From Daejeonella lutea (GTDB lineage: Bacteria > Bacteroidota > Bacteroidia > Sphingobacteriales > Sphingobacteriaceae): 64,000 nt of DNA. The position numbers and the translations under genes are program-made. Shown in pieces: positions 21,552 through 55,065 of the stretch. Numbering within the stretch: position 1 is the first letter of the stretch; each line of letters starts with the position of its first letter. The notes below the pieces were generated by a model that ran no database searches, was not told where the DNA came from, and was given only the letters and a program-made list of their open reading frames with translations. The stretch spans positions 1,176,943-1,240,942 of the forward strand of contig NZ_FUYR01000001.1 of NCBI RefSeq assembly GCF_900168015.1. The letters are read 5' to 3'.

Positions 21552-23651
21552 ATGATAAAAAATGCATCGTTCCTGGTGTTACTGTGCTTCAATATTTTAA
21601 GTTCCAAAGTATTCGCACAGACATTTTCCGTTGAATCCGTCCTGGCCTACCCTTTCCCTACTGAGCTTATCAGCAGTCCTTCAGGATCTAAAATTGCCTG
21701 GGCTCTGAATGAGCAGGGACGACGGAATATTTATGTTGCCGAAGCGCCGGAATTCACTCCCAGAAAGATAACTGAGTATAATAAAGATGATGGGCAGGAG
21801 CTCACCAGCTTAAGCATCTCAGCGGATGGAAAATGGGTAATTTATGTCCGCGGCGGCGACCATAGTGGCAGTAACTCTTCAATGCCTGTAAATGCAGCAT
21901 TCGACCCGGTTGCACCAAAAGTACAGATCATGAGCATTCCTTTTGAAGGAGGAAAGACAAACATACTTGCTGAAGCAGACGACCCAATTATCTCACCATC
22001 CAGCGATAAGGTGCTGTTCTCCCGAGGTAGTCAGGTGATGTCTGTTCCTATAAATGGTTCAGCAGGTGCTAAACCCTTATTCTATGCGCGAGGCACGACC
22101 GGCTCCCTCAGCTACTCTCCCGATGGATCTAAAATAGCATTTGTATCGTCCAGGGGCGATCACTCATTTATCGGTATTTATTCCGACGAACAAACACCTA
22201 TCAACTGGATTTTGCCTGCGTTTTCACGGGACAACTCCCCGCGCTGGTCGCCAGACGGCAAAAGCATTGCGTTTGTCAGGATGCCAGGACAGGGTGGAAA
22301 AACAGACTCAATTTTCGCAAGGAGGCATCAGCCCTGGACCATTTGGACCGCCGATATTACAACCGGAAAAGGGAACCCGATCTGGAAAGCACCCGAAACT
22401 CTTGAAGGTTCAGTACCACAGACTCAAGGAGGAACAAACCTGCATTGGGCAGGGGGAAACAGAATTGTTTTTGTTTCTTACCAGGATGGCTGGCCTCACC
22501 TGTATTCTGTAGATGCTAAAGGAGGAAAAGAATTACTGTTAACCCCTGGAAATTTTATGGTTGAACAGATTCGCCTCAGCAATGATGGAAAATGGCTGGT
22601 ATTTGCTGCAAACACTGGACGTGATCCATCAGATATTGATCGACGTCACATTGTTCGGGTTCCTGTTGATAAGCCAGCAATGGAGATCCTTACCCCCGGC
22701 GCCGGCATAGAGGCGTACCCGGTTATAACTGCTGATAATTCTACGATAGCTTTTTTAAGTTCTACTGCGCAGCGTCCTCTATTACCTGCTGTCATGAGTT
22801 TCAATAAAGGACCGGTCAAACTCATTGGCGAGAATCTGATACCATCAAGTTTCCCTACATCACAGCTTGTAACACCAAAACACGTTACTTTCAAAGCACC
22901 TGACGGGCAAACGGTTTACGGTCAGTTATTTGAGCCTAAAAATGCAGGGTCGGGTAAAAGGCCGGCTATAGTCTATGTTCATGGCGGACCACAACGCCAG
23001 ATGGTTTTGGGCTGGCACTTCATGGATTACTATTCCATTGATTATGGTTTGAATCAATATTTAGCCAATCTCGGATTTACGGTTTTATCGGTTAACTACC
23101 GGCTGGGAATAGGCTACGGTTATAAATTTCAGAGGGCTGTCAATGCAGGTGCACAGGGAGCTTCAGAATATCAGGACATTAAAGCCGCAGGAGAGTGGCT
23201 GGCTAAACAACCAAATATCGATGCAACAAAGATCGGCATATATGGGGGATCTTACGGCGGGTATCTGGTGGCGCTCGCCCTCGGTCATGATTCCAAGCTT
23301 TTCGCTGCCGGAGTCGATATCCACGGAGTAAATAACCGTTTCGCCGGATCTGCACAAAGCACCCGCGAGCCCGCGCCTGATGCAGATCTCTATGAGAAAG
23401 CTGTTATTAAGTCTTCGCCGGTTACCTATTTGGATACCTGGACCTCACCTACCCTCATCATCCATGCAGATGACGACAGGAATGTGAACTTCAGCCAGAG
23501 TGTTGACCTTGCACGTCGATTTGAAGACAAGAAGTTTGATTTTGAGTACCTGGCTATCCCGGACGATACCCATCACTGGATGAAATACTCAAATGGAGTG
23601 AAAGTTAGCGAGGTGACAGCGGACTTTTTGAAGAGAAAACTTATGAAATAG
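21552..23651 (+). CDS. secreted S9-family prolyl oligopeptidase-like peptidase
   Basis: The 699-residue protein has a signal peptide (about 1-23, ending VFAQ). A TolB/DPP-type beta-propeller follows (about 30-420, repeated SPDGSKIAF, SPDGKSIAF and SNDGKWLVF blades), then an alpha/beta-hydrolase domain (about 440-699). The catalytic triad can be read: Ser567 in GGSYGGY, Asp642 in HADDDRNV, and His674 or His675 in DDTHHW. Members cleave short peptides, often after proline or at acylated N-termini. Placed beside SusC/SusD, it probably trims imported peptides in the periplasm (inference). The stop codon's last base is also the first base of an inverted heptamer array. Confidence 0.92.
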   Translation: MIKNASFLVLLCFNILSSKVFAQTFSVESVLAYPFPTELISSPSGSKIAWALNEQGRRNIYVAEAPEFTPRKITEYNKDDGQELTSLSISADGKWVIYVRGGDHSGSNSSMPVNAAFDPVAPKVQIMSIPFEGGKTNILAEADDPIISPSSDKVLFSRGSQVMSVPINGSAGAKPLFYARGTTGSLSYSPDGSKIAFVSSRGDHSFIGIYSDEQTPINWILPAFSRDNSPRWSPDGKSIAFVRMPGQGGKTDSIFARRHQPWTIWTADITTGKGNPIWKAPETLEGSVPQTQGGTNLHWAGGNRIVFVSYQDGWPHLYSVDAKGGKELLLTPGNFMVEQIRLSNDGKWLVFAANTGRDPSDIDRRHIVRVPVDKPAMEILTPGAGIEAYPVITADNSTIAFLSSTAQRPLLPAVMSFNKGPVKLIGENLIPSSFPTSQLVTPKHVTFKAPDGQTVYGQLFEPKNAGSGKRPAIVYVHGGPQRQMVLGWHFMDYYSIDYGLNQYLANLGFTVLSVNYRLGIGYGYKFQRAVNAGAQGASEYQDIKAAGEWLAKQPNIDATKIGIYGGSYGGYLVALALGHDSKLFAAGVDIHGVNNRFAGSAQSTREPAPDADLYEKAVIKSSPVTYLDTWTSPTLIIHADDDRNVNFSQSVDLARRFEDKKFDFEYLAIPDDTHHWMKYSNGVKVSEVTADFLKRKLMK

Positions 23652-23710
23652 TTGAGAATGGAGAGTGGAGAATTGACTGAGCAGCATATTCTCCACTCTC
23701 AATTCTCAAC
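23651..23710. repeat. inverted heptamer array between convergent genes
   Basis: Left arm 23651-23673 and right arm 23688-23710 are 23-nt inverted copies with one mismatch and a 14-nt loop. Each arm is a row of 7-nt words (GTTGAGA, ATGGAGA, GTGGAGA on the left). It fills the gap between the S9 peptidase and ispE and would fold into a hairpin on either strand, so a bidirectional terminator is the simplest role. Confidence 0.85.
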
Positions 23711-23713
23711 TTA

Positions 23714-24517
23714 TCAGACCCCATAAAAAACCCTATTCCCCTCCTCCAGCTCCTCCAGTTTTACCGGAGCATTAAATATCCCATATACGGAAGATCCACT
23801 GCCGCTCATCGAAGCATATACCGCCCCTGCATCGTATAATGATTCTTTGATGGACAGTATTTCAGGGAAGTGTTTCATAATACCTGGCTCAAAATCGTTG
23901 GAGATGGAGTCCTTCCATTCAGAAATATTATTTTTGATCAGGTCCTTTAAGCTTTTAGTCGAAGGAGATGGGGATATATCTCTAAACGCCGCTGAAGTAG
24001 GGATGTGGATGTCTGGCATCACCAGAACGAGTTGATAACCGCTCAGGTCTAAACGGACGTTCTCAAATTTGTCGCCTTTTTCAATTGCGTACACTGGCTG
24101 ATTCCGGATAAAGAAAGGACAGTCTGCTCCCAATTGTGACGCATAGTTCTCCATCTTTTCAATACTTAGCCCCAATGTAAATTTTTCGTTCATTAGCTTG
24201 ATGAAAAACGAGGCATCGGCTGAGCCTCCTCCCAGGCCTGCACCAATTGGAATATTTTTATGTAAGTGAATCTTAACCGGCGGGAGTTTTATATCATGTG
24301 ATAACAACTTATAGGCCTTTAGGCAAATATTATCTTCTGGCCGGCCCGGAACGGCTATCCCACTTGAATTAAACGACAGTTCCCGATCTTCCACCACCTC
24401 TAGCACGTCTTTTATCATAACTGGATAAAACACGGTTTCCAAATCGTGATAGCCATCGCTCCTCTTTCTGACGATATTCAGTCCAATATTGATTTTCGCA
24501 TTAGGAAAAGCTATCAT
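23714..24517 (-). CDS. ispE: 4-diphosphocytidyl-2-C-methyl-D-erythritol kinase
   Basis: This 267-residue GHMP kinase phosphorylates CDP-methylerythritol at the 2-OH in the non-mevalonate isoprenoid pathway. It starts MIAFPNAKINIGLNI with the substrate-binding NAKIN motif, has the ATP loop PIGAGLGGGSADA (about residues 90-102) and a C-terminal SGSGSSVYGIF motif. I use the ATG at 24515-24517. A longer frame upstream (to 24808) reads through the repeat region with no family similarity. TATTTTTG -7-like elements on the minus strand at 24546-24553 and 24560-24567 fit this start. It is convergent with the S9 peptidase. Confidence 0.95.
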   Translation of the reverse strand: MIAFPNAKINIGLNIVRKRSDGYHDLETVFYPVMIKDVLEVVEDRELSFNSSGIAVPGRPEDNICLKAYKLLSHDIKLPPVKIHLHKNIPIGAGLGGGSADASFFIKLMNEKFTLGLSIEKMENYASQLGADCPFFIRNQPVYAIEKGDKFENVRLDLSGYQLVLVMPDIHIPTSAAFRDISPSPSTKSLKDLIKNNISEWKDSISNDFEPGIMKHFPEILSIKESLYDAGAVYASMSGSGSSVYGIFNAPVKLEELEEGNRVFYGV

Positions 24518-24604
24518 ATTCTTCACATCCTGATTTAGTTTTGAACAAAAATAGGATGCCAAAAATACATTTATTTTATTTGCAAGAGGAAGAGCGCTTC
24601 GAGC

Positions 24605-24728
24605 TTGCAAGCGACATCTTTTTACCGCAGACGGGGCAAACTGTATGCAAAGATCGCAAAGCTTGAATATTGCCTGATAAGCATTAGCAAGCGTCCGACA
24701 TGTTACTTTGCGCCCTTTGGGATTAAAA
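24605..24728. repeat. GCGCAAAG-type palindromic intergenic repeat
   Basis: In the divergent ispE/thyA gap, GCAAAGATCGCAAAG (24647-24661) faces an inverted relative ACTTTGCGCCCTTTGGG (24705-24721). GAGCTTGCAAGC (24601-24612) is a short palindrome. The same word family occurs at 2100-2230 and 54848-55020. It is non-coding. Confidence 0.6.
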
Positions 24729-24767
24729 CCCGGGTGGTACGCTTTAAAAAACCTGAGACGCCAGTAT

Positions 24768-25562
24768 ATGAAACAATATCTCGATTTAATGCAGCATGTA
24801 CTGGACAACGGTACTCAAAAACACGATCGCACCGGCACCGGAACTATCAGTGTTTTCGGATATCAAATGCGCTTTAATCTTCAGGAAGGATTTCCACTGG
24901 TAACTACCAAAAAAGTTCACCTGAGATCGATCATTCATGAACTAATATGGTTTTTAAAGGGAGAAACTAACATAAAATATTTAAAGGATAATAGGGTTAG
25001 CATTTGGGACGAGTGGGCCGATGAGAATGGTGAGTTAGGTCCTGTTTATGGCTCCCAATGGCGTTCATGGCCTACACCGGATGGCGGACATATTGATCAG
25101 ATCACCGGTATCATAAAACAGATAAAAACCAACCCCGATTCAAGAAGAATTATAGTATCGGCATGGAACGTGGCAGAAATAGAGAACATGGCTCTTCCGC
25201 CATGCCATAGTTTCTTCCAGTTTTATGTCGCTGATGGCAAACTTAGTTGCCAGCTTTACCAACGAAGCGCTGACATATTTCTCGGAGTACCGTTTAATAT
25301 CGCATCTTATGCTTTGCTTACGATGATGGTAGCCCAGGTATGCGATCTGCAACCTGGCGATTTTGTTCATACGCTGGGTGATGCTCATCTGTATAATAAT
25401 CACCTGGATCAAACGAGGCTGCAGTTAAGCCGCGAACCACGCCCGCTTCCGCAAATGAAATTGAACCGGGACGTAAAAGACATTTTCGGGTTTAAGTTCG
25501 AAGACTTTACCCTCGAAAATTACGATCCGCATCCACACATTAAAGGAGCTGTTGCCATATGA
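24768..25562 (+). CDS. thyA: thymidylate synthase
   Basis: The 264-residue enzyme converts dUMP to dTMP with methylene-tetrahydrofolate; its length equals the E. coli protein. Key motifs are HDRTGTGT (phosphate loop), the catalytic cysteine in [29 protein letters not shown], and [12 protein letters not shown]. The start at 24768 ([12 protein letters not shown]) matches the family start; an in-frame ATG at 24708 lies in the upstream repeat. The stop overlaps the folA start by 4 bp (ATGA), so the two are translationally coupled. This fits the metabolic link: ThyA makes dihydrofolate, which FolA recycles. Confidence 0.97.
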
Positions 25563-26044
25563 CAATCAGTCTTATTGTTGCTACGGATGAGAATAACGGA
25601 ATAGGGAAAAATAACCAACTGCCCTGGCACCTCCCGGCTGATCTGAAACATTTCAAAACACTTACAACAGGGCATCCCATTATAATGGGCAGAAAGACGT
25701 TCGAGTCTATCGGAAAAGCACTTCCTAACCGTACTAATATTGTAATTACCCGGCAGAATAATTATGCTGCTGAAGGTGCAATTGTTGTGTCTTCGCTGCA
25801 GGATGCTTATGACCTTTGTGATGATGAAATGGAGGCATTTGTTATTGGCGGTGCCCAGATCTTTGAACAAGCATTAACTCAGGCAGACATCTTATATCTG
25901 ACGGTTATACACCATGCGTTTGACGCTGATACATTCTTCCCGCAAATCAACCAATCTCAGTGGCTTAAGGCCGAAAGCAGCACCCACGAGCCCGATGAAA
26001 AGAATATTTATTCTTATACATTTATCAAATATATTAGGGCCTGA
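25559..26044 (+). CDS. folA: dihydrofolate reductase
   Basis: The 161-residue enzyme reduces dihydrofolate with NADPH. It begins [33 protein letters not shown], the full substrate-loop signature. It then has the NADPH-binding [19 protein letters not shown] and a late [13 protein letters not shown] motif. Length and layout are those of chromosomal, trimethoprim-sensitive type enzymes; nothing suggests a resistance variant. The start codon overlaps the thyA stop by 4 bp. Confidence 0.97.
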
Positions 26045-26095
26045 ATTAATACGGATATTTCTGCTTTAAAGAATTTTTAAAAACAAAAATTTAAT

Positions 26096-26103
26096 TAGCT
26101 TTG
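26096..26103 (+). promoter_or_regulatory. candidate -7 element for secDF
   Basis: TAGCTTTG matches TAnnTTTG exactly, 52 bases before the secDF start and after the folA stop. An AT-rich stretch precedes it, but no clear -33 TTTG. Confidence 0.4.
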
Positions 26104-26155
26104 CCGTCTTAACCAAAACAGGCTTAAATCAATATTAGTATACAATTAAAATAAA

Positions 26156-29122
26156 ATGCAAGGTAAAGGACTAGTAAAATTCGCCGCAATAGCATTAACG
26201 CTTGCGTGTTTATATTCACTCTCATTTACGTGGATAGCGAATAAAGTTGAAAAGGATGCGCAAGAATTTGCTAAAGGAAATCCGGCAAAAGAAAAGGCGT
26301 ATCTAGATTCTGTAGCTTCAGTACCTGTTTTCAGCAGCCTAAGTTATATCACCTACGAATACGCAAAACAGCGTGAGATTCCACTGGGTCTGGATTTAAA
26401 AGGTGGTATGAACGTGACTATGGAGATCGCTCTAAGTGACATGATCCGTAACCTCGCCAATAAAAATCCGGATGCAAACTTCAATGCAGCAATAAGAAAT
26501 GCTGAGGCAGCGGTTGTAAAAGGCGACAATGATCTAATTGTTGCGTTCGCCAAGGAATATGAGAAACTCGTTCCTAACGGAAAACTTGCCCCCTTATTTG
26601 CTACAAAAGAAAATTCAGCAAATGTTAAGATCGATGCCAGCAATCAGGATGTTGTAAATTTCCTGAAGAAAGAAGCGGACGGCGCAATTGACCGGTCTTT
26701 TAACATTCTCCGTACTCGTATCGATAAGTTTGGTGTAACCTCCCCTAATATTCAAAAACAACAGGGAACGAACAGGATACTTATCGAACTTCCAGGAGTT
26801 AAAGACCAGGACCGAGTTCGTAATTTATTACAGGGATCAGCTAAACTTGAATTCTGGGAGACTTACGACAACAGTGAGATCTTTGCTCTTTTGCAGAATG
26901 TTAACAGCATTTTAGCTTCAACAAATAAGGCTGGAGACACTACAGCTAGCCCTGCAGCCGCTCAGGATACTGCAAAAAGCAAACTTGCCGCTCTTGGCAA
27001 AAAAGATACTACGGGTAAGGTCGACAGCGCTGCCGCTTTAAATAAAGTGCAGGCTGAGCAGGCTAAGCTTAATCCACTATTCTCCATCCTTAACCCTGCT
27101 ACTTTCAAGGGAGAAAACGGACAGCCAAGCTTGCGTCCTGGACCAGTAGTTGGTTATGCGGCATTAAAAGATACAGCACGGGTGAATGCTTATTTGTCTT
27201 CACCTCAAGTAAAATCAGTCATCCCATCTAACATCAGGTTATTCTGGGGTGTTAAGCCAATTACACCAGAAAGCAAGGTATTCGAATTATACGCATTAAA
27301 AACAAGCAATCTTGCTGGTGGTCCGGCATTGGAAGGTGATGTCATCTCTGATGCACGTTCTGATTATGATCAGCGCGGAAACGCTGAAGTTGTGATGGTC
27401 ATGAATACTGAAGGTGCCCGCGCCTGGAGAACATTGACAGCTAATGCATCTGCCGATCCAAATAATAAGAAAAGTGTTGCCATAGTACTTGATAACCTTG
27501 TTTATTCGGCTCCAACGGTACAGGGTGAAATTCCAAATGGTGTATCATCGATCAGCGGTAACTTCAAAATTGAAGATACTCAGGATCTTGCCAACGTTCT
27601 TAAAGCCGGAAGGTTACCAGCACCCGCAAAAATTGTAAGTGAGTATGTTGTAGGTCCTTCTCTTGGAGCCGATTCTATCTCTGCCGGATTGATCTCAACC
27701 ATCGCAGGTATCGTGGTGATCCTGTTATTTATGGCCATGTACTACAGTACAGCTGGTTTAGTGGCAAATATTGCTCTCCTTGTTAACTTATTCTTCCTGA
27801 TGGGTGTACTTGCATCACTGGGCGCTGTGTTAACACTTCCAGGTATTGCAGGTATCGTACTTTCCCTGGGTATGTCGGTTGATGCTAACGTGCTTATATA
27901 TGAACGGATCCGTGAGGAGCTTTCGGAGGGCAAGTCTATACGACTTGCAATTGCTGAAGGATTCACTAAGGCGATGCCATCGATTCTCGATTCGAACATT
28001 ACAACCTTCTTAACGGGTGTGATCCTTTACATCTTCGGCCAGGGTCCCATTGTCGGCTTCGCAACGACATTGATGATCGGTATTATCACATCTCTGTTCG
28101 CAGCTATCTTCATTTCGCGATTGGTATTCGAATGGATGCTTGATAGAAAGAAACCTATCAGCTTCTCGATAAAAGCAACTCAAAACCTGTTTAAGGATTC
28201 TAAATTTGACTTTATCTCAGGACGTAGAAAGTTCTATATTCTATCTTCAGCTATTATCCTGGCCGGAATTATCTCCGCCTTTACACAAGGATTCAGCCTC
28301 GGTGTTGATTTCTCTGGTGGACGTTCTTACTTTGTAGCGTTTGATAAACCAGTAGATATAGAGGATGCACGTGAGATTTTAACAAATACATTTGAAACAC
28401 CTGTAGAGGTCAAGACTTTTGGTTCTTCCAACCAGGTTAAAATCACTACAGCTTACATGATCAACGACAATTCGCTTGCCGCTGATGATAACGTTAAAGT
28501 AAAGCTTGCAGAAGGTCTGAAAAAGATAAGTCCGGTTTATGAGATTAAAGATTCTCAGAAGGTTGGTCCGACTATGGCAGACGACATCAAAACCTCAGCA
28601 ATTTATGCCGTTGGTTTCTCTATCCTGGTGATCTTCCTGTATATCATCATCCGCTTTAAGCGAATGGCATTTGGTTTTGCAGCGATTCTGGCACTTGTAC
28701 ACGACGTGCTTGTTTTGCTCGCGATATTTACCATATTCAACGGATGGCTTCCATTCTCGCTGGATATCGACCAGGCTTTTGTCGCTGCAATATTAACGGT
28801 CATGGGTTATTCTATTAACGATACGGTTGTTGTATTTGACCGTGTCCGTGAGTACATCGGACAACACCATTCGAAAGAAGAAAACCTGCCTACTGTTATT
28901 AACAATGCTCTTAACAGCACGCTGAGCCGTACCGTTATTACCGGTTTATGTACAATGGCTGTATTGATTATCATCTTCATCTTTGGTGGTGAAATCCTTA
29001 GAGGTTTCTCTTTCGCCATGCTGATTGGTGTGATCTTCGGAACCTACTCTTCCCTGTTCGTGGCTACGCCTTTCGTGGTGGAGTTCATCAAGGAAAAAGG
29101 CGATGAAGTAAAGAAAAGCTAA
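26156..29122 (+). CDS. secDF: fused protein translocase subunit SecDF
   Basis: The 988-residue protein joins SecD and SecF in one chain, as is usual in Bacteroidota. The SecD half (about 1-670) has the first helix, the GLDLKGGMNVTMEI motif, a large periplasmic P1 domain (about 90-500) and the helices with GIAGIVLSLGMSVDANVLIYERIREEL. The SecF half has GVDFSGGRSYFV and VMGYSINDTVVVFDRVRE. SecDF uses the proton gradient to pull secreted proteins through SecYEG. An alanine/lysine-rich, low-complexity insert lies at about 265-300. A clean terminator follows at 29149-29175. Confidence 0.97.
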   Translation: MQGKGLVKFAAIALTLACLYSLSFTWIANKVEKDAQEFAKGNPAKEKAYLDSVASVPVFSSLSYITYEYAKQREIPLGLDLKGGMNVTMEIALSDMIRNLANKNPDANFNAAIRNAEAAVVKGDNDLIVAFAKEYEKLVPNGKLAPLFATKENSANVKIDASNQDVVNFLKKEADGAIDRSFNILRTRIDKFGVTSPNIQKQQGTNRILIELPGVKDQDRVRNLLQGSAKLEFWETYDNSEIFALLQNVNSILASTNKAGDTTASPAAAQDTAKSKLAALGKKDTTGKVDSAAALNKVQAEQAKLNPLFSILNPATFKGENGQPSLRPGPVVGYAALKDTARVNAYLSSPQVKSVIPSNIRLFWGVKPITPESKVFELYALKTSNLAGGPALEGDVISDARSDYDQRGNAEVVMVMNTEGARAWRTLTANASADPNNKKSVAIVLDNLVYSAPTVQGEIPNGVSSISGNFKIEDTQDLANVLKAGRLPAPAKIVSEYVVGPSLGADSISAGLISTIAGIVVILLFMAMYYSTAGLVANIALLVNLFFLMGVLASLGAVLTLPGIAGIVLSLGMSVDANVLIYERIREELSEGKSIRLAIAEGFTKAMPSILDSNITTFLTGVILYIFGQGPIVGFATTLMIGIITSLFAAIFISRLVFEWMLDRKKPISFSIKATQNLFKDSKFDFISGRRKFYILSSAIILAGIISAFTQGFSLGVDFSGGRSYFVAFDKPVDIEDAREILTNTFETPVEVKTFGSSNQVKITTAYMINDNSLAADDNVKVKLAEGLKKISPVYEIKDSQKVGPTMADDIKTSAIYAVGFSILVIFLYIIIRFKRMAFGFAAILALVHDVLVLLAIFTIFNGWLPFSLDIDQAFVAAILTVMGYSINDTVVVFDRVREYIGQHHSKEENLPTVINNALNSTLSRTVITGLCTMAVLIIIFIFGGEILRGFSFAMLIGVIFGTYSSLFVATPFVVEFIKEKGDEVKKS

Positions 29123-29658: not shown

Positions 29659-29673
29659 GCGCCCAGTCCTGAA

Positions 29674-29746
29674 ACCTGATACCTAAAACCTAACACCTAA
29701 TACCTAATACCTATTACCTACTACCTGATACCTATTACCTAACACC
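29674..29746 (+). repeat. direct heptamer array (ACCTNNN) before fnr
   Basis: Ten consecutive 7-nt units of the form ACCTNNN (ACCTAAT, ACCTAAC, ACCTATT, ACCTGAT and similar) plus a final ACC run in exact register. They end 6 bases before the reductase start codon, so they occupy the ribosome-binding region. Confidence 0.95.
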
Positions 29747-29752
29747 AAAAAA

Positions 29753-30757: not shown

Positions 30758-30759
30758 AA

Positions 30760-31135: not shown

Positions 31136-31177
31136 ACCTAAAGCCTAAAGCCTATACCCAATGCCCAATGCCCAAAG
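31136..31177 (+). repeat. direct heptamer array before NDH-2
   Basis: Six 7-nt units in register (ACCTAAA, GCCTAAA, GCCTATA, then CCCAATG twice and CCCAAAG). It belongs to the same broad family as the arrays at 29674 and 32553 but is shorter and more diverged. It lies 47 bases before the start codon. Confidence 0.85.
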
Positions 31178-31224
31178 CAAATTCACCCTTTAATTGTTAA
31201 CCTTTACATACCCAAATAAATAAC

Positions 31225-32552: not shown

Positions 32553-32612
32553 ACCTAACACCTAATCCCTAAAACCTAATACCTAATACCTAACACCTAA
32601 TACCTAATACCC
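32553..32612 (+). repeat. direct heptamer array (ACCTAAY) before mvaB
   Basis: Eight units in exact 7-nt register (mostly ACCTAAT and ACCTAAC, one CCCTAAA), ending with ACCC two bases before the mvaB ATG. Same family as 29674-29746. Confidence 0.95.
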
Positions 32613-32614
32613 AA

Positions 32615-35898: not shown

Positions 35899-36007
35899 AT
35901 AGGGGTGGTTTTACACTGGTACGCTGTTGCTTTGGGTTTTGGGCTATGATCTCATAAATCTAAAGATTCTCTTTATTACACTGGAGCCGGATTCTCCTGC
36001 TTCTTTC

Positions 36008-36042
36008 TTCCTACCTCCTACTTCTTACATTCTACCTCATTC
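36008..36042. repeat. direct heptamer array downstream of fbaA
   Basis: Five 7-nt units in register (TTCCTAC, CTCCTAC, TTCTTAC, ATTCTAC, CTCATTC). It lies next to the perfect hairpin at 36048-36085 and downstream of fbaA on the minus strand. Confidence 0.8.
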
Positions 36043-36047
36043 CTCTT

Positions 36048-38178: not shown

Positions 38179-38180
38179 AG

Positions 38181-38250
38181 GGAAATGGAGAATGGGAAAT
38201 AGAACAATAAAGTATTAACTCAATTCTCCACTGTCCATTCTCAATTCTCT
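38181..38250. repeat. inverted heptamer array between accD and MBL gene
   Basis: Left units GGAAATG, GAGAATG, GGAAATA (38181-38201) face right units ATTCTCC, ACTGTCC, ATTCTCA, ATTCTCT (38223-38250), the inverse sense of the same word family. It starts 2 bases after the accD stop and overlaps the MBL stop codon. Convergent-gap position; likely a bidirectional hairpin, though less perfect than 23651-23710. Confidence 0.8.
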
Positions 38251-43520: not shown

Positions 43521-44215
43521 TTCTATTGTTTAGCAGCGCTTTCCTGGGCGGGCTAAGTGTGTTCTTTTTCAAAAGCGAGAATACAAACAGGCTAAAACTG
43601 GTTTTATCATTCAGCGGAGCTTACCTTTTTGCTATAACTGTCTTGCACCTGATGCCGGACGTGTATAGCAGTGGTGAGGCTCAAATCGGGCTTTTCATCC
43701 TGGGCGGCTTCCTGCTGCAAATACTGATGGAGCAGTTCTCCGAAGGTATTGAGCATGGGCACATCCATAAACACAATCATGAACATTATGTATTCCCTTT
43801 GGGGATAATGCTTAGTCTCTGCCTGCACGCCTTTCTGGAAGGGATGCCACTTGCGCAGGGGCAGCATACCGAACTCGTTTACGGAATTGCCCTTCATCAT
43901 ATTCCCGCAGCCTTTGCCCTTGGCAGTGTCCTGCTGCATGCCCATCAGCCGAAAGGAAAAACGATAGCCATGCTGGTACTATTTGCCCTCATGAGCCCGC
44001 TCGGCTACCTATTAAGTGTCAGAATTGGCGAAGGAACTTTTGGTAATATCGATATGTATTTTGGAAGCATTATGGGTGTTGTCATCGGAATCTTCCTGCA
44101 CATCTCAACAACGATACTTTTTGAATCAAGCGTCGATCATAAGTTCAATCTGAAGAAGTTTGTTGCGGTTTTACTGGGTGTTGGGATTGCTTTAGTAGGG
44201 TATTTTATGCACTAA
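43502..44215 (+). CDS. ZIP-family metal transporter
   Basis: The 237-residue protein has about seven helices, a histidine-rich loop (EHGHIHKHNHEHY, about residues 83-95), and the metal-path motifs LHLMPDVY, HAFLEGMPLAQ and HHIPAAFALGSVLLHAHQ. ZIP proteins bring zinc or other divalent metals into the cytoplasm. It is short for the family but complete. It overlaps the PAP2 gene by 19 bp. Its stop is followed immediately by the GTTNTAC heptamer array. No zinc-uptake-regulator site was recognised. Confidence 0.9.
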   Translation: MEIWELILLFSSAFLGGLSVFFFKSENTNRLKLVLSFSGAYLFAITVLHLMPDVYSSGEAQIGLFILGGFLLQILMEQFSEGIEHGHIHKHNHEHYVFPLGIMLSLCLHAFLEGMPLAQGQHTELVYGIALHHIPAAFALGSVLLHAHQPKGKTIAMLVLFALMSPLGYLLSVRIGEGTFGNIDMYFGSIMGVVIGIFLHISTTILFESSVDHKFNLKKFVAVLLGVGIALVGYFMH

Positions 44216-44361
44216 GTTGTACGTTTTACGTTATACGTTATACGTCTTGGCGGATATTGCACAGCGTTTAGAAAACGTATGACGTATCACTTACAAACGT
44301 ATTACGTACAACTTTAAAGAGCGTTTAGAAAACGTACAACGTAAAACGTACGACGTATAAC
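44216..44361. repeat. inverted heptamer array, GTTNTAC family
   Basis: It begins at the base after the ZIP stop. Left: four units of GTTNTAC in exact register (44216-44243). Right: four units of the inverse form GTANNAC (44334-44361). Between are further units (44277-44312), one single-base phase slip, and a 17-bp direct repeat (44263-44279 and 44320-44336). It fills the convergent gap to the marR gene. Confidence 0.93.
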
Positions 44362-44366
44362 TCCCC

Positions 44367-47522: not shown

Positions 47523-47544
47523 CATTCAATATTTATGAGCCTGA

Positions 47545-47829
47545 CTATTTAACAGAAGGCGTATTTAATGCCCGAGATGCTTCCAAAGAAATTGACGACT
47601 TCTCAAAGCGAATTTTCGTTCCGCCGTCTACATCAATCAAAAAAGTAGTGTCGTTCATATCTACGATCTTGCCATGAATTCCGGAAGTCGTGATAACCTT
47701 ATCCCCTTTTTTTAATTCTTCAACATATTTTTTATGATCTTTTGCCTTTTTCATTTGTGGTCTTATCATAAAGAAATAAAATACCACAATGATGAGGATC
47801 ATTGGTAAAAATTGCCCGACTTGTTGCAT
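47545..47829 (-). CDS. yajC: preprotein translocase subunit YajC
   Basis: The 94-residue protein has one N-terminal helix (FLPMILIIVVFYFFMIRPQMKKAKDHKKY, about residues 7-35) and the family core LKKGDKVITTSGIHGKIVDMND. YajC associates with the SecDF complex and with AcrB in E. coli. It follows the DUF1573 lipoprotein gene by 27 bp and ends at a strong terminator. Confidence 0.96.
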   Translation of the reverse strand: MQQVGQFLPMILIIVVFYFFMIRPQMKKAKDHKKYVEELKKGDKVITTSGIHGKIVDMNDTTFLIDVDGGTKIRFEKSSISLEASRALNTPSVK

Positions 47830-47856
47830 AGTATAATTGTCTAAATAAAAATATAA

Positions 47857-48318: not shown

Positions 48319-48325
48319 GTTTAAT

Positions 48326-49273: not shown

Positions 49274-49303
49274 GTATAAGAACGATTTATTAATTTGGCC
49301 TGA

Positions 49304-50392
49304 TTACCAGGCAGCTTTTATTTTTCTAATATCCTCAATCCGCTTTTCAGCGATCTTATTCGCCGCTTCGTTGGTGGGGATATTATCTTCTTTTGATTTC
49401 TTTAGTACTCTTCGCGTCGCCTCGTAAATATTCTCAGCCATCTGGAGCGTCTTCTTTTTATTGAACCCAGCTATTTCCGAATAACAATTGATCAAACCGC
49501 CGGCATTGATCAGGTAATCCGGAGCATATAAAATACCTTTTTCAAGCAGCATCCTACCATGAACCTCCTCATCCGCCAGCTGATTATTTGCCGATCCTGC
49601 GATAATGGAACATTTCAGCCTGTTAATAGTTTCAGTATTTACCGTTGCACCAAGTGCACATGGTGAATAAATATCGATATCCAGATCAAAGAGTTTGTTT
49701 GTCGATATCGCCTCAGCGCCATATTTCTGCGCTACCTGCCCCAGTCGCTCCTCGTTAATATCGCTGATGTAAACCTTAGCATTCTCATTCCTCAGCAAAC
49801 CAACCAGGATCTCTCCCACATGCCCGATACCCTGCACGGCAACCGATTTCCCTGCCAGGCTATCATTACCGAAAAACTCCTTTACCGAAGCCTTAATTCC
49901 CATAAATACCCCGCGGGCAGTTACCGGTGAAGGATCTCCGCTGCCTCCTATGGATTCAGGAATACCCGTAACATATTTCGTTTCCATCCGGATGTATTCC
50001 ATGTCTTTCGGACTGGTACCTACATCCTCAGCCGTTATAAATGAGCCGTTGAGGTTTTCAATAAAACGTCCAAACCTGCGCATCAAAGCCTCACTTTTCT
50101 GAAGCCTGCTGTCGCCGATAATAACTGCTTTACCCCCGCCAAGGTTTAAGCCGGTAATGGCTGCCTTGTAAGTCATGCTCCGCGATAGACGCAAAACATC
50201 GTTCAATGCCTCTGTTTCAGTTTTATAAGCGAACATCCTCGTCCCACCCAATGCAGGCCCAAGTGTTGTATCATGTATGGCAATAATCGCTTTCAGTCCC
50301 GTGCCCGGATCACTGCAATAAACGATTTTCTGATGCCCTGATTGTTCAAGCTTACTAAAGACGGATTGTTCATCAAACTGAGATAACGCCAT
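49304..50392 (-). CDS. leucine dehydrogenase-type Glu/Leu/Phe/Val dehydrogenase
   Basis: The 362-residue enzyme deaminates a branched-chain amino acid with NAD+. It has the substrate loop AIHDTTLGPALGGTRMF, catalytic lysines in RSMTYKAAITGLNLGGGKAVI, ITAEDVGTSPKDM, and the NAD site VQGIGHVGEIL. I use the ATG at 50390-50392 (MALSQFDEQSVF); a longer frame to 50479 adds 29 residues that read as spacer. A TACTTTTG -7-like element at 50415-50422 on the minus strand supports this start. Leucine is the best guess for substrate. Confidence 0.9.
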   Translation of the reverse strand: MALSQFDEQSVFSKLEQSGHQKIVYCSDPGTGLKAIIAIHDTTLGPALGGTRMFAYKTETEALNDVLRLSRSMTYKAAITGLNLGGGKAVIIGDSRLQKSEALMRRFGRFIENLNGSFITAEDVGTSPKDMEYIRMETKYVTGIPESIGGSGDPSPVTARGVFMGIKASVKEFFGNDSLAGKSVAVQGIGHVGEILVGLLRNENAKVYISDINEERLGQVAQKYGAEAISTNKLFDLDIDIYSPCALGATVNTETINRLKCSIIAGSANNQLADEEVHGRMLLEKGILYAPDYLINAGGLINCYSEIAGFNKKKTLQMAENIYEATRRVLKKSKEDNIPTNEAANKIAEKRIEDIRKIKAAW

Positions 50393-50479
50393 ACGGATTG
50401 CTTGCTTTATGGGACAAAAGTAGTAAAAATTCCATATTAAGGTGGGACAAGAGAATTTAGGTGGCCACATGTGCATCAT

Positions 50480-50953
50480 TTTTTTTCATTCGACCGCCTT
50501 CGGAGTCGGGAGGACGGTTATATGTGATGGCTATAAACATACGACCACCTTCGGGTCTTGCGGGTTTTTAAATGTTCGGTCAGGCGGGAAGCAATGGCTA
50601 ACGTATAGGTTCCTCCCTTCGGCAGGCCGACAAGCAAGCAATGAAGAATATATAGGTTCCTCCCTTCGGTCGGAATGACGAACCCCGTGTTTAAAAGAGA
50701 GATTTCTCCTCGCAGCACGTATCCCCTAAATTTATTGAGACGGGTCGCTCGTCGAAATACGGCTCCAACGTTAATTTTAGGGCATTTCGACGAGCCAGCA
50801 CACATCAATTTTATCTTTAAAAGTCACAGCGAGGAGAAATCTCTTATTTCTAAACCAGACATCGTCATTCCGACCGAAGGGAGGAACCTCTTCTAATGCG
50901 GAGCGAAGCAACCACAATCTCACAAATTCTCTCTAATTTTGCTTAACAATCAC
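50480..50953. repeat. spacer with CTTCGG-type repeats and a triple nested inverted repeat
   Basis: No gene was seen. At 50480-50653 several related words with a CCTTCGG core occur, including two direct copies of ATAGGTTCCTCCCTTCGG (about 50612 and 50652). At 50654-50889 three perfect inverted repeats are nested: 50654-50680/50863-50889 (27 bp), 50698-50713/50829-50844 (16 bp) and 50747-50758/50784-50795 (12 bp). The outer arm resembles dispersed GTCATTCCGACC-type palindromes. The gap is divergent (leucine dehydrogenase / ABC exporter), so it must also carry both promoters. Confidence 0.9.
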
Positions 50954-50954
50954 A

Positions 50955-52739
50955 ATGAAGGATCTCGCCTACCTTAATAAGTTTTTCTACAAGTATCGCT
51001 GGAGGTTTATTCCTGGGATCCTTTTCGTGATAATTTCCAATATTTTCGGCGTACTTCCTGCGCAGGTAATTCAAATTTCGTTCGACCTCGTCAGCGAAAA
51101 TATTACCGTTTACAGGCTGTTCAGCGGTTTCGACCGCCAGGATGTGATCAACGAAATTTTTGGTTACACCCTCATGCTCTTTGGCGCCATTGTGTTGATG
51201 CTTGCCTTGCTGCGCGGGATATTCCTTTTCTTTATGCGGCAGACCATCATACTGATGTCCCGGCATATTGAATACGATCTCAAGAACGAGATCTATAACC
51301 ACTACCAAAAGCTTTCCATGGCCTTCTACCGACGGAATAATACCGGCGATTTGATGAACCGTGTCACAGAAGATGTCAGCCGGGTGCGCATGTACCTCGG
51401 CCCGGCAATCATGTATACCATTAATACTGTGGTACTTTTTATCATGATTGTGGCCTTCATGTTTAGCGTCAACGCCAAACTGGCGCTGTACTCCCTTCTT
51501 CCTTTACCTCTCCTTGCTATCACTATTTACTTTGTGAACACGATGATCAACAACCGCAGCGAGAAGATCCAGGAGCAGCTGTCAGCACTATCCAACTTTG
51601 TACAGGAAACCTTTTCTGGAATACGGGTAATTAAGGCCTATGTCCGCGAAGACGATGTCCGCGAAAAGTTTGATGTGGAAAGCGAAAATTACAAATCCCA
51701 GTCGATGGCTCTCGTACAAGTACAGGCATTATTTTTTCCCTTGATATTACTGCTCGTCGGACTAAGCACCATCATCACAGTTTATATTGGCGGCATCGAA
51801 GTCATGAACGGTACCATCAGTTCGGGTAACATCGCCGAGTTTATTGTTTACGTCAACCAATTGACTTTTCCTGTGATGTCGCTGGGCTGGGTAACTTCAC
51901 TCATCCAAAGGGCTGCAGCATCCCAGAAGCGGATCAATGAATTCCTGCATACCAAACCAGAAATTACCTCGCCGCGCTCTCAAGCGGCAGCGATCAGCGG
52001 ACATATTGAATTTAAAAATGTCAGTTTTACCTATCCCGATACTGGAATACAGGCCATCAAGAACATATCCTTTGAAGTCAAACCCGGGGAATTTGTCGCA
52101 ATCATTGGACGCACAGGCTCGGGGAAGTCAACCATCGCCAACCTGCTCATGCGCATGTACGATACCGATAGCGGCGAGATTCTTATCGACGGCAAACCGC
52201 TGCGGGAACTTGACCTGAACAGTTTCCGCCAACAGATCGGCTTTGTTCCGCAGGAAGTATTCCTTTTCTCCGACAGTATTAAGAATAATATTGCCTTCGG
52301 CATCTCCGCCCCGGATCAGGAAACAATAGAAGCCGCTGCGAAAAATGCCGCTGTGTACCAGAATATCGTGGAGTTCGAAAAAGGATTTGAAACCCTGATC
52401 GGTGAAAGGGGAATTACTTTGTCTGGCGGACAGAAACAACGCCTGTCTATTGCCAGGGCCATTATCAAAGAACCTCAGATCCTTGTTTTTGATGATTGTC
52501 TTTCAGCTGTAGATACCCGCACCGAAGAGCAGATCCTTAATAACCTCGGGCGCGTAATGAAAAATAAGACCAGTATACTCATCGCCCACCGCGTTTCTAC
52601 CATTAAGAACGCCGACAAGATCCTAGTCATCGAAGGTGGTGAGATCATGGAACAAGGCAGTCACCGGTCGCTGATGTCAAAAAAAGGCATCTACTTCGAG
52701 CTCTACGAAAAGCAGCTGCTGGAGGAACAGGTGGTTTAG
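50955..52739 (+). CDS. MsbA-like ABC exporter (fused permease-ATPase)
   Basis: The 594-residue half-transporter has six helices (about residues 20-320) and an ATPase domain (about 345-590). Walker A is GRTGSGKST (near 386), the ABC signature LSGGQKQRLSIARA, Walker B ILVFDDCLSAVD (near 507) and the switch histidine in LIAHRVSTI. It would act as a homodimer. The MsbA/lipid A flippase group is the closest type, but drug exporters look alike. It is a single gene divergent from leucine dehydrogenase, and its stop is followed one base later by a heptamer array. Confidence 0.9.
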   Translation: MKDLAYLNKFFYKYRWRFIPGILFVIISNIFGVLPAQVIQISFDLVSENITVYRLFSGFDRQDVINEIFGYTLMLFGAIVLMLALLRGIFLFFMRQTIILMSRHIEYDLKNEIYNHYQKLSMAFYRRNNTGDLMNRVTEDVSRVRMYLGPAIMYTINTVVLFIMIVAFMFSVNAKLALYSLLPLPLLAITIYFVNTMINNRSEKIQEQLSALSNFVQETFSGIRVIKAYVREDDVREKFDVESENYKSQSMALVQVQALFFPLILLLVGLSTIITVYIGGIEVMNGTISSGNIAEFIVYVNQLTFPVMSLGWVTSLIQRAAASQKRINEFLHTKPEITSPRSQAAAISGHIEFKNVSFTYPDTGIQAIKNISFEVKPGEFVAIIGRTGSGKSTIANLLMRMYDTDSGEILIDGKPLRELDLNSFRQQIGFVPQEVFLFSDSIKNNIAFGISAPDQETIEAAAKNAAVYQNIVEFEKGFETLIGERGITLSGGQKQRLSIARAIIKEPQILVFDDCLSAVDTRTEEQILNNLGRVMKNKTSILIAHRVSTIKNADKILVIEGGEIMEQGSHRSLMSKKGIYFELYEKQLLEEQVV

Positions 52740-52741
52740 GG

Positions 52742-52823
52742 TTTAGGCATTAGGTGCGTGCGTACCTAACGCCTAAGGCCTGATACCTCAAACCCTAATA
52801 CCTAAAGCCTAATCCCTAATCCT
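52742..52823. repeat. mixed-orientation heptamer array after the ABC exporter
   Basis: TTTAGGC and ATTAGGT (52742-52755) face ACCTAAC and GCCTAAG (from 52764), giving an 11-bp inverted repeat with one mismatch (52745-52755 / 52764-52774). More units in the CCTAA sense continue to 52823 with one single-base slip. It is between two codirectional genes. Confidence 0.9.
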
Positions 52824-52897
52824 CCCCCTATCAAAAAAAAATCAATTTGTTACTTTGCGAATATCTATTATATTTACCCCAACATAAAAAATAAACA

Positions 52898-53227
52898 ATG
52901 GGAGATTTCGACAACAAAGAAAGAGAAGAGGTTTTTTCAAAAAAGGTAAGAGCGGGGAAGCGCACCTATTTTTTCGATGTTAAAGCTACACGCTCAAACG
53001 ACTATTATGTTACTGTAACAGAAAGTAAAAAACGTTTAGAAGACGGAGTATTTATTAAACACAAGATCTTCCTTTACAAAGAAGACTTCGAAAAATTCGC
53101 TGAGGGCTTGAAAGAAACCATTGATTATATCAAAGCAAATCAGGAAGTTGTTGAAAAACGTTACGAATATTCAGATCATCACCCTGAAACCGCGAAAATA
53201 GAAGACGACTTCTCCTTCGAGGTATAA
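52898..53227 (+). CDS. DUF3276 (PUR-alpha-like) protein
   Basis: The 109-residue protein has the single PUR repeat layout: KVRAGKRTYFFDVKATRSNDYYVTVTESKKR (beta strands), then FIKHKIFLYKEDFEKFAEGLKETIDYIK (last strand and helix). It ends in an acidic tail. Bacterial PUR-alpha-like proteins bind single-stranded DNA or RNA in vitro; the cellular role is open. It is monocistronic and closed by a terminator at 53251-53279. Confidence 0.9.
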   Translation: MGDFDNKEREEVFSKKVRAGKRTYFFDVKATRSNDYYVTVTESKKRLEDGVFIKHKIFLYKEDFEKFAEGLKETIDYIKANQEVVEKRYEYSDHHPETAKIEDDFSFEV

Positions 53228-53250
53228 GACATTTAACAAACTATATACTG

Positions 53251-53279
53251 AGCTGTCCACTAACATGGATGGCTTTTTT
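53251..53279 (+). terminator. intrinsic terminator after the DUF3276 gene
   Basis: AGCTGTCCA and TGGATGGCT form a 9-bp stem (two G-T wobbles) with a 6-nt loop, followed by TTTTT. Confidence 0.85.
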
Positions 53280-53324
53280 ATTGCCCAAAACTCAGGCGTA
53301 TTTAAAAAGATCGGAATTGATTTC

Positions 53325-53332
53325 TATCTTTG
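53325..53332 (+). promoter_or_regulatory. candidate -7 element upstream of ychF
   Basis: TATCTTTG matches TAnnTTTG exactly, right after the DUF3276 terminator. It would place the whole heptamer region 53341-53513 in the ychF 5' untranslated region (about 175 nt). Confidence 0.45.
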
Positions 53333-53340
53333 CGGGAAAT

Positions 53341-53513
53341 TAGGCGTTAGGTCTTAGGCAATAGGTCCAACCTAAGCGCTTAAACCTAATACTCAATAAG
53401 CATAAGGCATTAGGTGCTAGGTAATAGGCTATAAGTGGACCTAACGCCTAAAGCCTAAAGCCCAACAAGTAATCAACTTTCAGTCACTTTCAACTTTCAA
53501 CTCTCAACTCAAA
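53341..53513 (+). repeat. long two-family heptamer array ending at the ychF start
   Basis: At 53341-53462 seventeen units stay in 7-nt register while switching sense between TAGGNNN and NNCCTAA. TTAGGCGTTAGGTC (53340-53353) is a perfect inverse of 53438-53451. A second family, ACTTTCA/ACTCTCA (53476-53513), follows and ends one base before the ychF ATG. Confidence 0.93.
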
Positions 53514-53514
53514 T

Positions 53515-54615
53515 ATGGCATTACAGTGCGGAATAGTTGGCCTCCCAAACGTAGGCAAATCAACATTGTTTAATTGTTTATCAAATGCGAAAGCGCAGGC
53601 GGCGAATTTCCCGTTCTGTACCATCGAACCAAATATAGGTGTAATCACTGTCCCTGATCCGCGTTTAACCAAGCTGGCTGAACTCGTTCAACCGCAAAAG
53701 GTTCAACCGAATACAATCGAGATCGTTGATATAGCTGGACTGGTAAAAGGTGCGAGCAAGGGTGAAGGACTAGGGAACCAGTTCCTTGGAAATATCCGTG
53801 CAACCAGCGCAATCATTCATGTTTTGCGTTGTTTTGATGATGATAACGTGATACATGTGGATGGCTCTGTTGATCCGATCCGCGATAAGGAAATCATTGA
53901 TACCGAGCTGCAGCTGAAAGACCTTGATGCCATCATTAAAAGGATTCAGAAGGTTGAGAAGATGGCTAAGACCGGCAGCGATAAAGATGCAAAGAAGACC
54001 TTCGAGGTATGTACCATTGTAAAGGCTCACCTGGAGTCTGGCAAATCGGTACGCACCGCTCCTATCAGTCCTGAAGACCGCGAATTTATCGCAGACCTCT
54101 GGCTCCTCACTGAAAAACCGGTGCTGTATGTTTGTAATGTAGACGAAAAGTCTGTTGTTTCCGGCAATAGCTATGTAGACAAAGTGCGCGAAGCGGTGAA
54201 AGAAGAAAATGCTGAAGTGCTTGTCATCTCAGCACAGATCGAGGCTGAAATTGCTTCTCTTGATAGCTATGAAGAACGTCAGATGTTCCTCGAGGACCTT
54301 GGCTTAACCGAATCGGGTGTTACCAAGCTCATCCGTGCTGCTTACAAGCTATTAAACCTTGCAACTTACTTCACAGCAGGTGTTCAGGAGGTGCGGGCAT
54401 GGACAATCACTCAGGGATTTACTGCACCACAGGCAGCCGGAGTGATCCACTCCGACTTTGAAAAAGGCTTCATCCGCGCTGAAGTAATTAAGTACGATGA
54501 TTTTGTGAACCTCGGATCGGAAGCAGCCTGTAAGGAAGCTGGTAAACTAGGCGTGGAAGGCAAAACCTACATCGTGCAGGACGGAGATATTATGCATTTC
54601 AGGTTTAATGTCTAG
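53515..54615 (+). CDS. ychF: redox-regulated ATPase YchF (Obg family)
   Basis: The 366-residue protein is an Obg-like P-loop enzyme: G1 GLPNVGKS (8-15), G3 in VDIAGLVKGASKGEGLGNQFL, and NVDE in place of the usual GTPase NKxD, which fits its preference for ATP. A coiled coil occupies about 130-165, and the C-terminal TGS domain has TWTITQGFTAPQAAGVIHSDFEKGFI. It binds ribosomes and is linked to stress responses. The start follows heptamer repeats by one base, leaving no room for a Shine-Dalgarno. Confidence 0.97.
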   Translation: MALQCGIVGLPNVGKSTLFNCLSNAKAQAANFPFCTIEPNIGVITVPDPRLTKLAELVQPQKVQPNTIEIVDIAGLVKGASKGEGLGNQFLGNIRATSAIIHVLRCFDDDNVIHVDGSVDPIRDKEIIDTELQLKDLDAIIKRIQKVEKMAKTGSDKDAKKTFEVCTIVKAHLESGKSVRTAPISPEDREFIADLWLLTEKPVLYVCNVDEKSVVSGNSYVDKVREAVKEENAEVLVISAQIEAEIASLDSYEERQMFLEDLGLTESGVTKLIRAAYKLLNLATYFTAGVQEVRAWTITQGFTAPQAAGVIHSDFEKGFIRAEVIKYDDFVNLGSEAACKEAGKLGVEGKTYIVQDGDIMHFRFNV

Positions 54616-54672
54616 GTAAAGCATTTCTTTCGCCTTTCCTTCTTTTTTCCTAAGTTTGCACACCAAATAACC

Positions 54673-54744
54673 GCACCCTTAGTTCAACGGATAGAATTTT
54701 GGTTTCCGGTACCAAAGATAGGGGTTCGAATCCCTTAGGGTGCA
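54673..54744 (+). tRNA. tRNA-Arg (anticodon CCG)
   Basis: A full 72-nt cloverleaf: acceptor GCACCCT/AGGGTGC, D arm GTTC/GAAT, anticodon stem TTGGT/ACCAA with loop TTCCGGT (anticodon CCG at loop positions 3-5), T arm AGGGG/CCCTT with loop TTCGAAT, discriminator A. CCA is not encoded. A terminator follows 8 bases later. Confidence 0.95.
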
Positions 54745-54751
54745 CAAAAGA

Positions 54752-54786
54752 AAAGCCCTCCTGAAAAATCGGGAGGGCTTTTTTTG
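54752..54786 (+). terminator. intrinsic terminator after tRNA-Arg
   Basis: AGCCCTCC and GGGAGGGCT form an 8-bp stem around an A-rich loop, followed by seven T. Confidence 0.93.
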
Positions 54787-55065
54787 GAGGTCAGAAGTCG
54801 GAGGTCGGAAGTATGAGGTCTGAGGTCTGACTGGATTTCCGACAAGGTTTAAACGCAGAGGGCGCAAAGGTTAACGCGGAGAACGCTGATTAAAATGCAC
54901 AGCGAATTAAAACCACAGAGGACGAGTTTTTCGCAGAGAACGCAAAGTGCGACCCGTGATAACATTGATTCCCCGATATGCCTCTTCGATCTTTGCGCGT
55001 ACTCTGCGCTAAAGTTATCACAGCGTTTAGTCTCCGACTTCAGACCTCCGACTTCAGTCTCAATT
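54786..55065. repeat. composite repeat: heptamer outer arms, GCGCAAAG-type core
   Basis: Left outer arm 54786-54834 is seven units of GGAGGTC/TGAGGTC type in register. Right outer arm 55031-55065 is five units in the inverse sense (TCTCCGA, CTTCAGA and so on), overlapping the chitinase stop. 54794-54806 and 55043-55055 are a perfect 13-bp inverse pair. The core (54848-55020) has GCAGAGGGCGCAAAGG-like words facing ATCTTTGCGCGTACTCTGCG, the same family as 24605-24728. Confidence 0.88.

Follow-up and report, generated by a model that had tools for sequence, protein, structure and literature searches.

Intergenic heptad arrays in Daejeonella lutea: recurrent word families, shared loops and a one-sided arm order

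Heptanucleotides were found in a 2007 survey to be the most abundant long simple repeat class in most genomes, and polymerase contact length was proposed as the reason for this abundance (Mrazek et al., cited in MacGregor, 2015, PMC4679880). Arrays of degenerate heptads, many of them paired as inverted arms, lie between the genes of a 64,000-nt stretch of DNA from Daejeonella lutea (hereafter the window, which sits in contig 10 of this 4.03-Mb genome, labelled G000). Among the closest described systems are the GGGAATC/GGGGATT heptamers of Xanthomonas and Nostoc, with 70 inverted pairs in Xcc and 75 in Xac and, in Xanthomonas, a convergent share of 16% against a divergent share of 7–8% (Rehm et al., 2015, PMC4692102). 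These heptamers resemble the present arrays in being degenerate and intergenic, in forming inverted pairs, in their bias to stop codons and to convergent over divergent gaps, and in positions that are mostly retained while length and sequence change between species. They differ in having one G-quadruplex word, whereas D. lutea has several word families in one genome and a loop motif common across words, and the word replacement at kept positions and the measured arm order reported below also set the present arrays apart. The TAACTGA repeats of Beggiatoaceae, cyanobacteria and some Bacteroidetes (169 direct sets and one indirect set in the BOGUAY genome; MacGregor, 2015, PMC4679880) are likewise intergenic heptads, often just 5′ of start codons, and AACTGAT, a word of the congener G010, is a rotation of TAACTGA; unlike the arrays here, that system has one word and nearly all direct repeats.

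The short tandemly repeated repetitive (STRR) heptamers of heterocystous cyanobacteria share period 7, intergenic position and dispersal. The original prediction, made from the letters of the window, had drawn this parallel, and a period-7 process like that of cyanobacteria and other bacteria is supported: 7-nt units occur in excess, between genes and in many copies, as expected of the STRR or heptamer simple sequence repeat type. The arrays of D. lutea are a richer version of a bacterial repeat type that is already known but little understood. Their sequences directly show a period of 7, arms that match, a preferred arm order, loops in common, copies both dispersed and in tandem, and places that are partly kept with changed words. 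In those portions of the open-access literature that were available, no report was found of an arm-order rule, of a loop common to word families, or of word replacement at kept gaps.

The sequence analysed comprised 1.26 Mb of contig 10 and 0.4 Mb from each of two congeners, the sister species G003 and the more distant G010, with genes called by our own dicodon caller. Gaps of at least 30 nt were scored for lag-7 runs (match +1, mismatch −1), and a score of 13 was the array cut-off in the genome scan. The full 1.26 Mb served for the lag scan, word clusters, arm pairs, stem-order controls, orthologous gaps, stratified odds and polarity counts, and the first 0.46 Mb for array counts shared with the relatives, arm-to-stop distances, the arm permutation test and initial terminator counts. 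All ten window gaps for which arrays had been proposed contain a lag-7 segment that beats 500/500 dinucleotide shuffles of the same gap, with scores of 10–47 against shuffle maxima of 9–13 and against 2–6 at lags 5, 6, 8 and 9; the weakest array, at 23652–23713, scores 10 against a shuffle maximum of 9. The cut-off at lag 7 is passed by 90/764 gaps across the 1.26 Mb and by 0/764 after one shuffle. Lags 4–6, 8–10, 12, 13 and 15 yield 0–4 gaps each, so that the excess over periods 6 and 8 on which the original prediction depended is present, and lag 14 yields 66 as a harmonic of lag 7.

Array-bearing gaps number 37/283 in the first 0.46 Mb of D. lutea, 40/223 in G003 and 23/242 in G010, and arrays are rare in coding open reading frames (ORFs; 3/1054 in D. 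lutea, 4/306 and 0/330 in the two relatives). Among gaps of 30–400 nt (three length bins summed), arrays occur in 19/108 convergent, 48/452 codirectional and 7/139 divergent gaps, convergent gaps being richer than divergent ones (Fisher p 0.0017); at all lengths, 12/162 divergent gaps carry an array. Arrays are thus rarer in divergent gaps and in genes than in convergent gaps, in line with the original prediction. The class is not confined to the genus: 80 named Bacteroidota loci outside it contain 38 lag-7 segments (score ≥15) in 23/80 loci and 1–7 segments at each of seven other lags, and the array class therefore extends far into the phylum. Two separate observations concern the same scan. 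Codirectional gaps on contig 10 carry arrays more commonly in the forward (43/286) than in the reverse direction (15/198). A second, separate class with period 11 occurs in 16 gaps, 8 of them divergent, with examples on contig 10 at 88950, 398567 and 529805 (AACGTAGGATA), 616209 and 745967 (TCACCCTGAGA), and 342849 and 1022756 (TTCGGTAGCGC type).

A typical unit appears to begin with degenerate heptads as its 5′ arm, followed by a loop and by a 3′ heptad arm that usually complements the 5′ arm, the two arms being 12–172 nt apart (median ∼54). Neighbouring arms within 200 nt (n = 74) match in inverted orientation in 43 pairs, directly in 13 and neither way in 18. The mean inverted match inside a gap is 14.35 (34 gaps) against 8.77 when arms are permuted within genomes (maximum of 300 permutations, 11.2). 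Arms of the GTTATAC family fit their own partners better than swapped partners (18.31 v 16.65, n 16, p 0.003); the corresponding values are n 6, p 0.05 for AACTGTC, n 4, p 0.29 for AAGTATC and n 5, p 0.64 for AATCAGT. The order of the arms is strongly one-sided, with the 5′ arm G-richer in 60 cases and C-richer in 3. This count joins the 43 inverted pairs (39 G-richer, 1 C-richer, 3 equal) with 24 single segments holding both arms (21 G-first, 2 C-first, 1 equal), some of which (e.g., 880383) may be a self-complementary word and not two arms. GC skew labels GTTATAC poorly; when this family is left out, 23 cases are G-first and 1 is C-first. The controls lack such an order: ordinary terminators are G-first in 97 cases, C-first in 128 and equal in 44, and other perfect stems 37, 39 and 28, compared with 20, 3 and 7 for perfect stems inside heptad arrays. 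In the 80 loci outside the genus, ten inverted pairs are 9:1 G-first and two further single segments are G-first. Among single arms (n = 56), those ≤50 nt from a start are C-richer in 8 cases and G-richer in 1, and those ≤15 nt from a stop are G-richer in 18, C-richer in 4 and equal in 3; array-free leaders are likewise C-richer, and array-free 3′ flanks are near zero.

The words were originally thought to be specific to each gap and newly generated per site. This is contradicted by the window itself, where CCTAA words occur in 5/10 gaps, and by the genome, in which word families recur and a single dispersed element with a conserved loop accounts, through its copies, for some of the arrays. 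The words of D. lutea form 29 clusters against 56.8 for unit-shuffled arms, with 25 arms in the largest cluster (8.6 after shuffling), and seven clusters (6–25 arms each) hold 103/142 arms; the biggest are of the AACGTAT, AACTGTC, AATCAGT, AAGTATC and AATGCCT types. Many GTTATAC arms surround CTGGGCGGATA..CACAGCGTTTAG, and several AATCAGT arms surround GC..ACGTACCATA..ACAGCGTTTAG. The loop motif AGCGTTTAG is flanked by arms of several word families in both D. lutea and G003, and stands before the 3′ arms of at least four. It has 18 exact intergenic matches in the 1.26 Mb, of which 16 are followed by a lag-7 run within 45 nt, whereas the control words (its reversed form and three others) match 0, 0, 1 and 1 times, never near heptads; since five matches (617643–618004) belong to a single tandem cluster and another two to a common gap, about 11 places are independent. 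The core CAGCGTTTAG has 41 exact copies in the genome against 3 for its reverse (contexts were compared together for 30 of the 41), and with one mismatch 25/36 of its intergenic matches in D. lutea lie near arms, against 14% of random intergenic points; in the relatives the figures are 5/8 in G003 and 1/6 in G010. CACAGCGTTTAG has 17 copies in D. lutea, 9 in G003 and 0–2 in each of the 119 further genomes sampled from the family. The GTTATAC units of G003 align to the D. lutea copies at 75–88% over 65–155 bp, and whole units also occur as tandem copies in G003. At the G003 loci L362 and L363 these are near-perfect copies of the full arm-plus-loop unit of ∼60 and ∼100 bp. On contig 10 at ∼585800–632300, repeated GGGCGAAGCCACT-GATTACTGATTAC units are interspersed with AATCAGT heptads.

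In the window, Pfam agrees with the predicted gene names wherever one had been given (ten flanking proteins scanned). The convergent gap between an S9 peptidase and an ispE-like GHMP kinase is filled by inverted heptad arms TTGAGAATGGAGAGTGGAGAA / TTCTCCACTCTCAATTCTCAA (23652..23713; minimum free energy (MFE) −31.8, z −6.84). Three direct arrays follow: a CCTAA-type array (29668..29749) nearly reaches the next start codon with almost no RNA fold (MFE −0.9), a CCTAAAG / CCCAATG array (31137..31178) lies in a codirectional gap, and a CCTAATA array (32553..32614) extends to the next start codon (MFE 0), its orthologous gap in G003 having inverted GGGAATA / CCTATTT arms in its place. A degenerate TCCTACC array (35995..36045) lies in a codirectional gap beside a separate perfect 18-bp stem. 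Inverted GGAGAAT / ATTCTCC arms (38179..38248) occupy the convergent gap between an accD-like carboxyl transferase gene and a metallo-beta-lactamase superfamily (MBL) gene, with a weak fold (z −1.48). In the gap between a ZIP transporter and a MarR gene, a 5′ arm of GTTNTAC heptads (44216..44245) begins directly 3′ of the ZIP stop codon and is followed on the + strand by the loop of the GTTATAC element, CTTGGCGGATATTGCA + CAGCGTTTAG (44246..44271, core 44262–44271), a loop also found in similar form in G003 and in dispersed copies. A second core with one mismatch, GAGCGTTTAG (44319..44328, + strand), precedes the 3′ arm of AACGTAN heptads (44331..44357), and 44216–44363 folds with MFE −46.4 and z −3.91.

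Further along, inverted TTAGGNN / CCTAANN arms (52733..52822, z −4.58) overlap the end of the upstream ORF, whose stop codon TAG (52737–52739) lies within a heptad, so that the claim of no array inside a gene is nearly but not wholly true. TTAGGNN / CCTAANN together with ACTTTCA heptads (53340..53511; z −5.49 for 53336–53470) are bounded by an TATCTTTG motif and by the start codon of ychF; we take this motif and its counterparts upstream of ychF to be promoters. The encoded YchF protein shares 86% identity with that of Pedobacter rhodius, in keeping with a member of the Sphingobacteriaceae. The 230 nt 5′ of the ychF ATG contain heptads in 11/17 readable congeners, which follow the TATCTTTG-like motif in the seven where it is visible, and their words vary among species. 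A 5′ arm of GAGGTCT heptads (54787..54830) lies directly 3′ of a hairpin with a T-tract behind a tRNA (54673–54744). It is followed on the + strand by the loop motif of that family, GGATTTCCGACA, here as ACTGGATTTCCGACA (54833..54844), whose GATGGATTTCCG form has 19 genome copies against 0 for the reversed control, and then by the core CAGCGTTTAG (55021..55030, + strand) immediately before a 3′ arm of CCGACTTCAGACCT heptads (55031..55065), before the GH18 (chitinase) gene. The intervening 54866–55018 holds an inverted repeat of CGCAGAGGGCGCAAAGG ... CTTTGCGCGTACTCTGCG type, and the core adjoins repeats of this type also at L299, L300 and L306. The four convergent gaps singled out by the original prediction do hold inverted arms, but a fifth, at ∼16251–16450 between small ORFs, has no array.

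Comparison of orthologous gaps shows both retention and turnover. Between D. lutea and G003 (n = 95), arrays are present in both species in 12 gaps, only in D. lutea in 8 and only in G003 in 11; the corresponding numbers for G010 (n = 137) are 8, 14 and 9. Stratified by gap type, the odds ratio for shared positions is 6.1 with G003 and 3.3 with G010. The word family is the same in 8/12 shared gaps with G003 and in 1/8 with G010 (Fisher p 0.028 between the two comparisons), and in 1/4 between G003 and G010, which supports a replacement of words in orthologous gaps. One clear case of concerted change is the S9/ispE gap, where TTGAGAR arms in D. lutea correspond to TTGAAAG in both arms in G003. 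Array density across 20 congeners, at four loci picked because D. lutea carries arrays there (fewer than four for G017 and G018), spans 0–560 bp per 10 kb (maximum G009), a width that speaks against an essential role; 5/20 congeners (G001, G005, G012, G013, and G014) have no lag-7 array at these loci. Three loci that could not be framed (the ZIP gap in G012, ychF in G017 and accD in G009) are excluded from the counts by locus, and a weak segment of G005 in the ZIP gap is not scored as an array.

The account we favour, to which we give about an even chance of being right, is that the arrays are non-coding palindromes grown by slippage, corrected through hairpins, dispersed, and tolerated at gene ends, and are not independent inventions of words. 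Arms would grow and homogenise by slippage in 7-nt steps, which is suggested because the period is strictly 7 and the words are degenerate. Both arms may then be kept in one family mainly by hairpin-templated copying from arm to arm, possibly with selection for the stem. Units, loop included, would be copied into other gaps and in tandem, the copies being seen in the sequence and the copying agent being putative. They would settle where least harmful, just 3′ of stop codons, between convergent genes and in leaders, and over species time the place would be partly retained and the words rewritten. Several points weigh against this account. Slippage and arm-to-arm copying are themselves inferred, and slippage alone does not predict a 60:3 arm order. 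Of 11 congeners with an array in the ZIP/MarR gap, 8 carry arms that belong to different families, as judged by eye and, for G010, also by score. The sharing of position fails between G003 and G010 (odds ratio 0.8) and is thus not a general rule. A transposase of REP type (PF01797; see below) was not found in the D. lutea genome, the core is limited to D. lutea and G003, and in G010 it is not tied to arms, 1/6 of its intergenic near-matches lying near them.

A possible but doubtful alternative is that the palindromes are bidirectional 3′-end elements, predicted to act as terminators without a U-tract or as caps protecting mRNA 3′ ends. A G- or purine-rich 5′ arm with a C- or pyrimidine-rich 3′ arm would give a weak RNA:DNA hybrid during stem closure in both directions, and the arm order fits this. 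Placement fits as well: in the 0.46 Mb of D. lutea and the two relatives, 69/127 arms lie ≤15 nt from a stop codon and 10/127 ≤15 nt from a start, the sense strand of stop-adjacent arms being G-richer in 54, C-richer in 8 and equal in 7. Arrays favour convergent over divergent gaps, and strong stems form in 4/5 of the inverted window stretches folded. One convergent gap (contig position 1045838) has an ordinary terminator in D. lutea and an array in G003, and the accD-like/MBL gap has an array in D. lutea and an ordinary hairpin in several congeners (by eye). Like intrinsic (Rho-independent) terminators the arrays are hairpins at gene ends; unlike them, and apart from arm order, 79/94 array gaps had no stem with T-tract by the search criteria used, a GC-rich stem followed by a U-tract being the defining trait of this class. 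No measurable replacement of ordinary terminators by arrays is seen. A stem plus T-tract is present in 10/41 convergent gaps with an array v 30/81 without (p 0.22) and in 15/94 array gaps v 94/444 others when codirectional gaps are included (p 0.32), and the terminator call in at least one array gap (g3 375541) is the array itself. Terminators are thus not significantly scarcer in array gaps, and they are present in just 4/58 array-less orthologues of array gaps against 47/298 gaps that are array-free in both species. Unmatched arms occur, arrays are found in 5′ leaders and behind the T-tract hairpin following the tRNA, and the direct CCTAA arrays barely fold. The terminator counts, the mismatched ZIP/MarR arms and the arrays in 5′ leaders do not support the original suggestion that arrays are kept where hairpins can end transcription.

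It is distinctly unlikely that the GTTATAC/AGCGTTTAG unit is a mobile element resembling a miniature inverted-repeat transposable element (MITE) with a putative transposase, the other arrays being its decayed or recombined relatives. The unit does have terminal inverted repeats and dispersed copies with a common loop, enriched only in two sister species. At the few comparable loci, where a target-site duplication and an empty orthologous site would mark a MITE, no such duplication could be recognised and array-adjacent flanks diverge; the loop core is common to arms of unrelated words and occurs in both orientations within codirectional gaps (3 and 8). No Y1 transposase was found in the D. lutea genome, other transposase families not having been searched.

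A selective role of the heptads as regularly spaced, putative sites for a nucleic-acid-binding protein (of Csp, Rho or nucleoid type) is very unlikely. The fixed period despite several words and the barely structured C-rich arrays right before start codons are consistent with it, and binding of Csp to heptamers is discussed by MacGregor (2015, PMC4679880). The change of words between orthologous gaps and the five congeners without arrays at the compared loci speak against binding sites.

The remaining candidates were rejected or weakened. Repetitive extragenic palindromic (REP/REPIN) sequences with a REP-associated tyrosine transposase (RAYT) are also dispersed intergenic palindromes, but the arms here are heptad arrays and the Y1_Tnp profile PF01797 has 0 matches in the D. 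lutea genome, the control giving matches in 5/14 genomes. A known structured RNA family is rejected, as the Rfam scan of the window gave a single match above gathering score, the tRNA, with none at arrays and two miRNA rows far under that score at 44214–44316. Transcription-driven polarity through R-loops is rejected as the sole cause of the arm order because divergent gaps keep it (6/6 pairs, 2/3 single segments). A hairpin as a strict requirement is weakened because some arms are unmatched; in the ZIP/MarR gap, 11/19 readable congeners carry arrays, with arms judged by eye to match in 3 of them and not in 8. Backup stop codons explain the arrays at most partially: stops occur at +7, +14, +21 and +28 from the gene's own stop in 23–28% of 80 array-bearing ends and at neighbouring offsets other than multiples of 7 in 3–12%, but the word of the largest family, GTTATAC, contains by eye no stop codon on the strand in question, and the lag-7 match at the stop codon is 0.36–0.53 against 0.29–0.36 elsewhere.

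A single genus offers numerous word families, positions that are partly kept, words that are replaced, a loop in common and a one-sided arm order. A tentative generalisation, which we hold possible but doubtful, is a polarity law for Bacteroidota heptad palindromes, by which the 5′ arm would be G-richer on either strand for any word or gene orientation, and both arms could change their words together while the loop between them is conserved. The system makes old questions testable, namely whether slippage alone can yield 60:3, whether one arm templates the other, and whether transcripts end there. If true, the polarity law would point to a directional process, either strand-preferring hairpin-templated writing or a tract-less bidirectional terminator that acts on weak pyrimidine-RNA hybrids.

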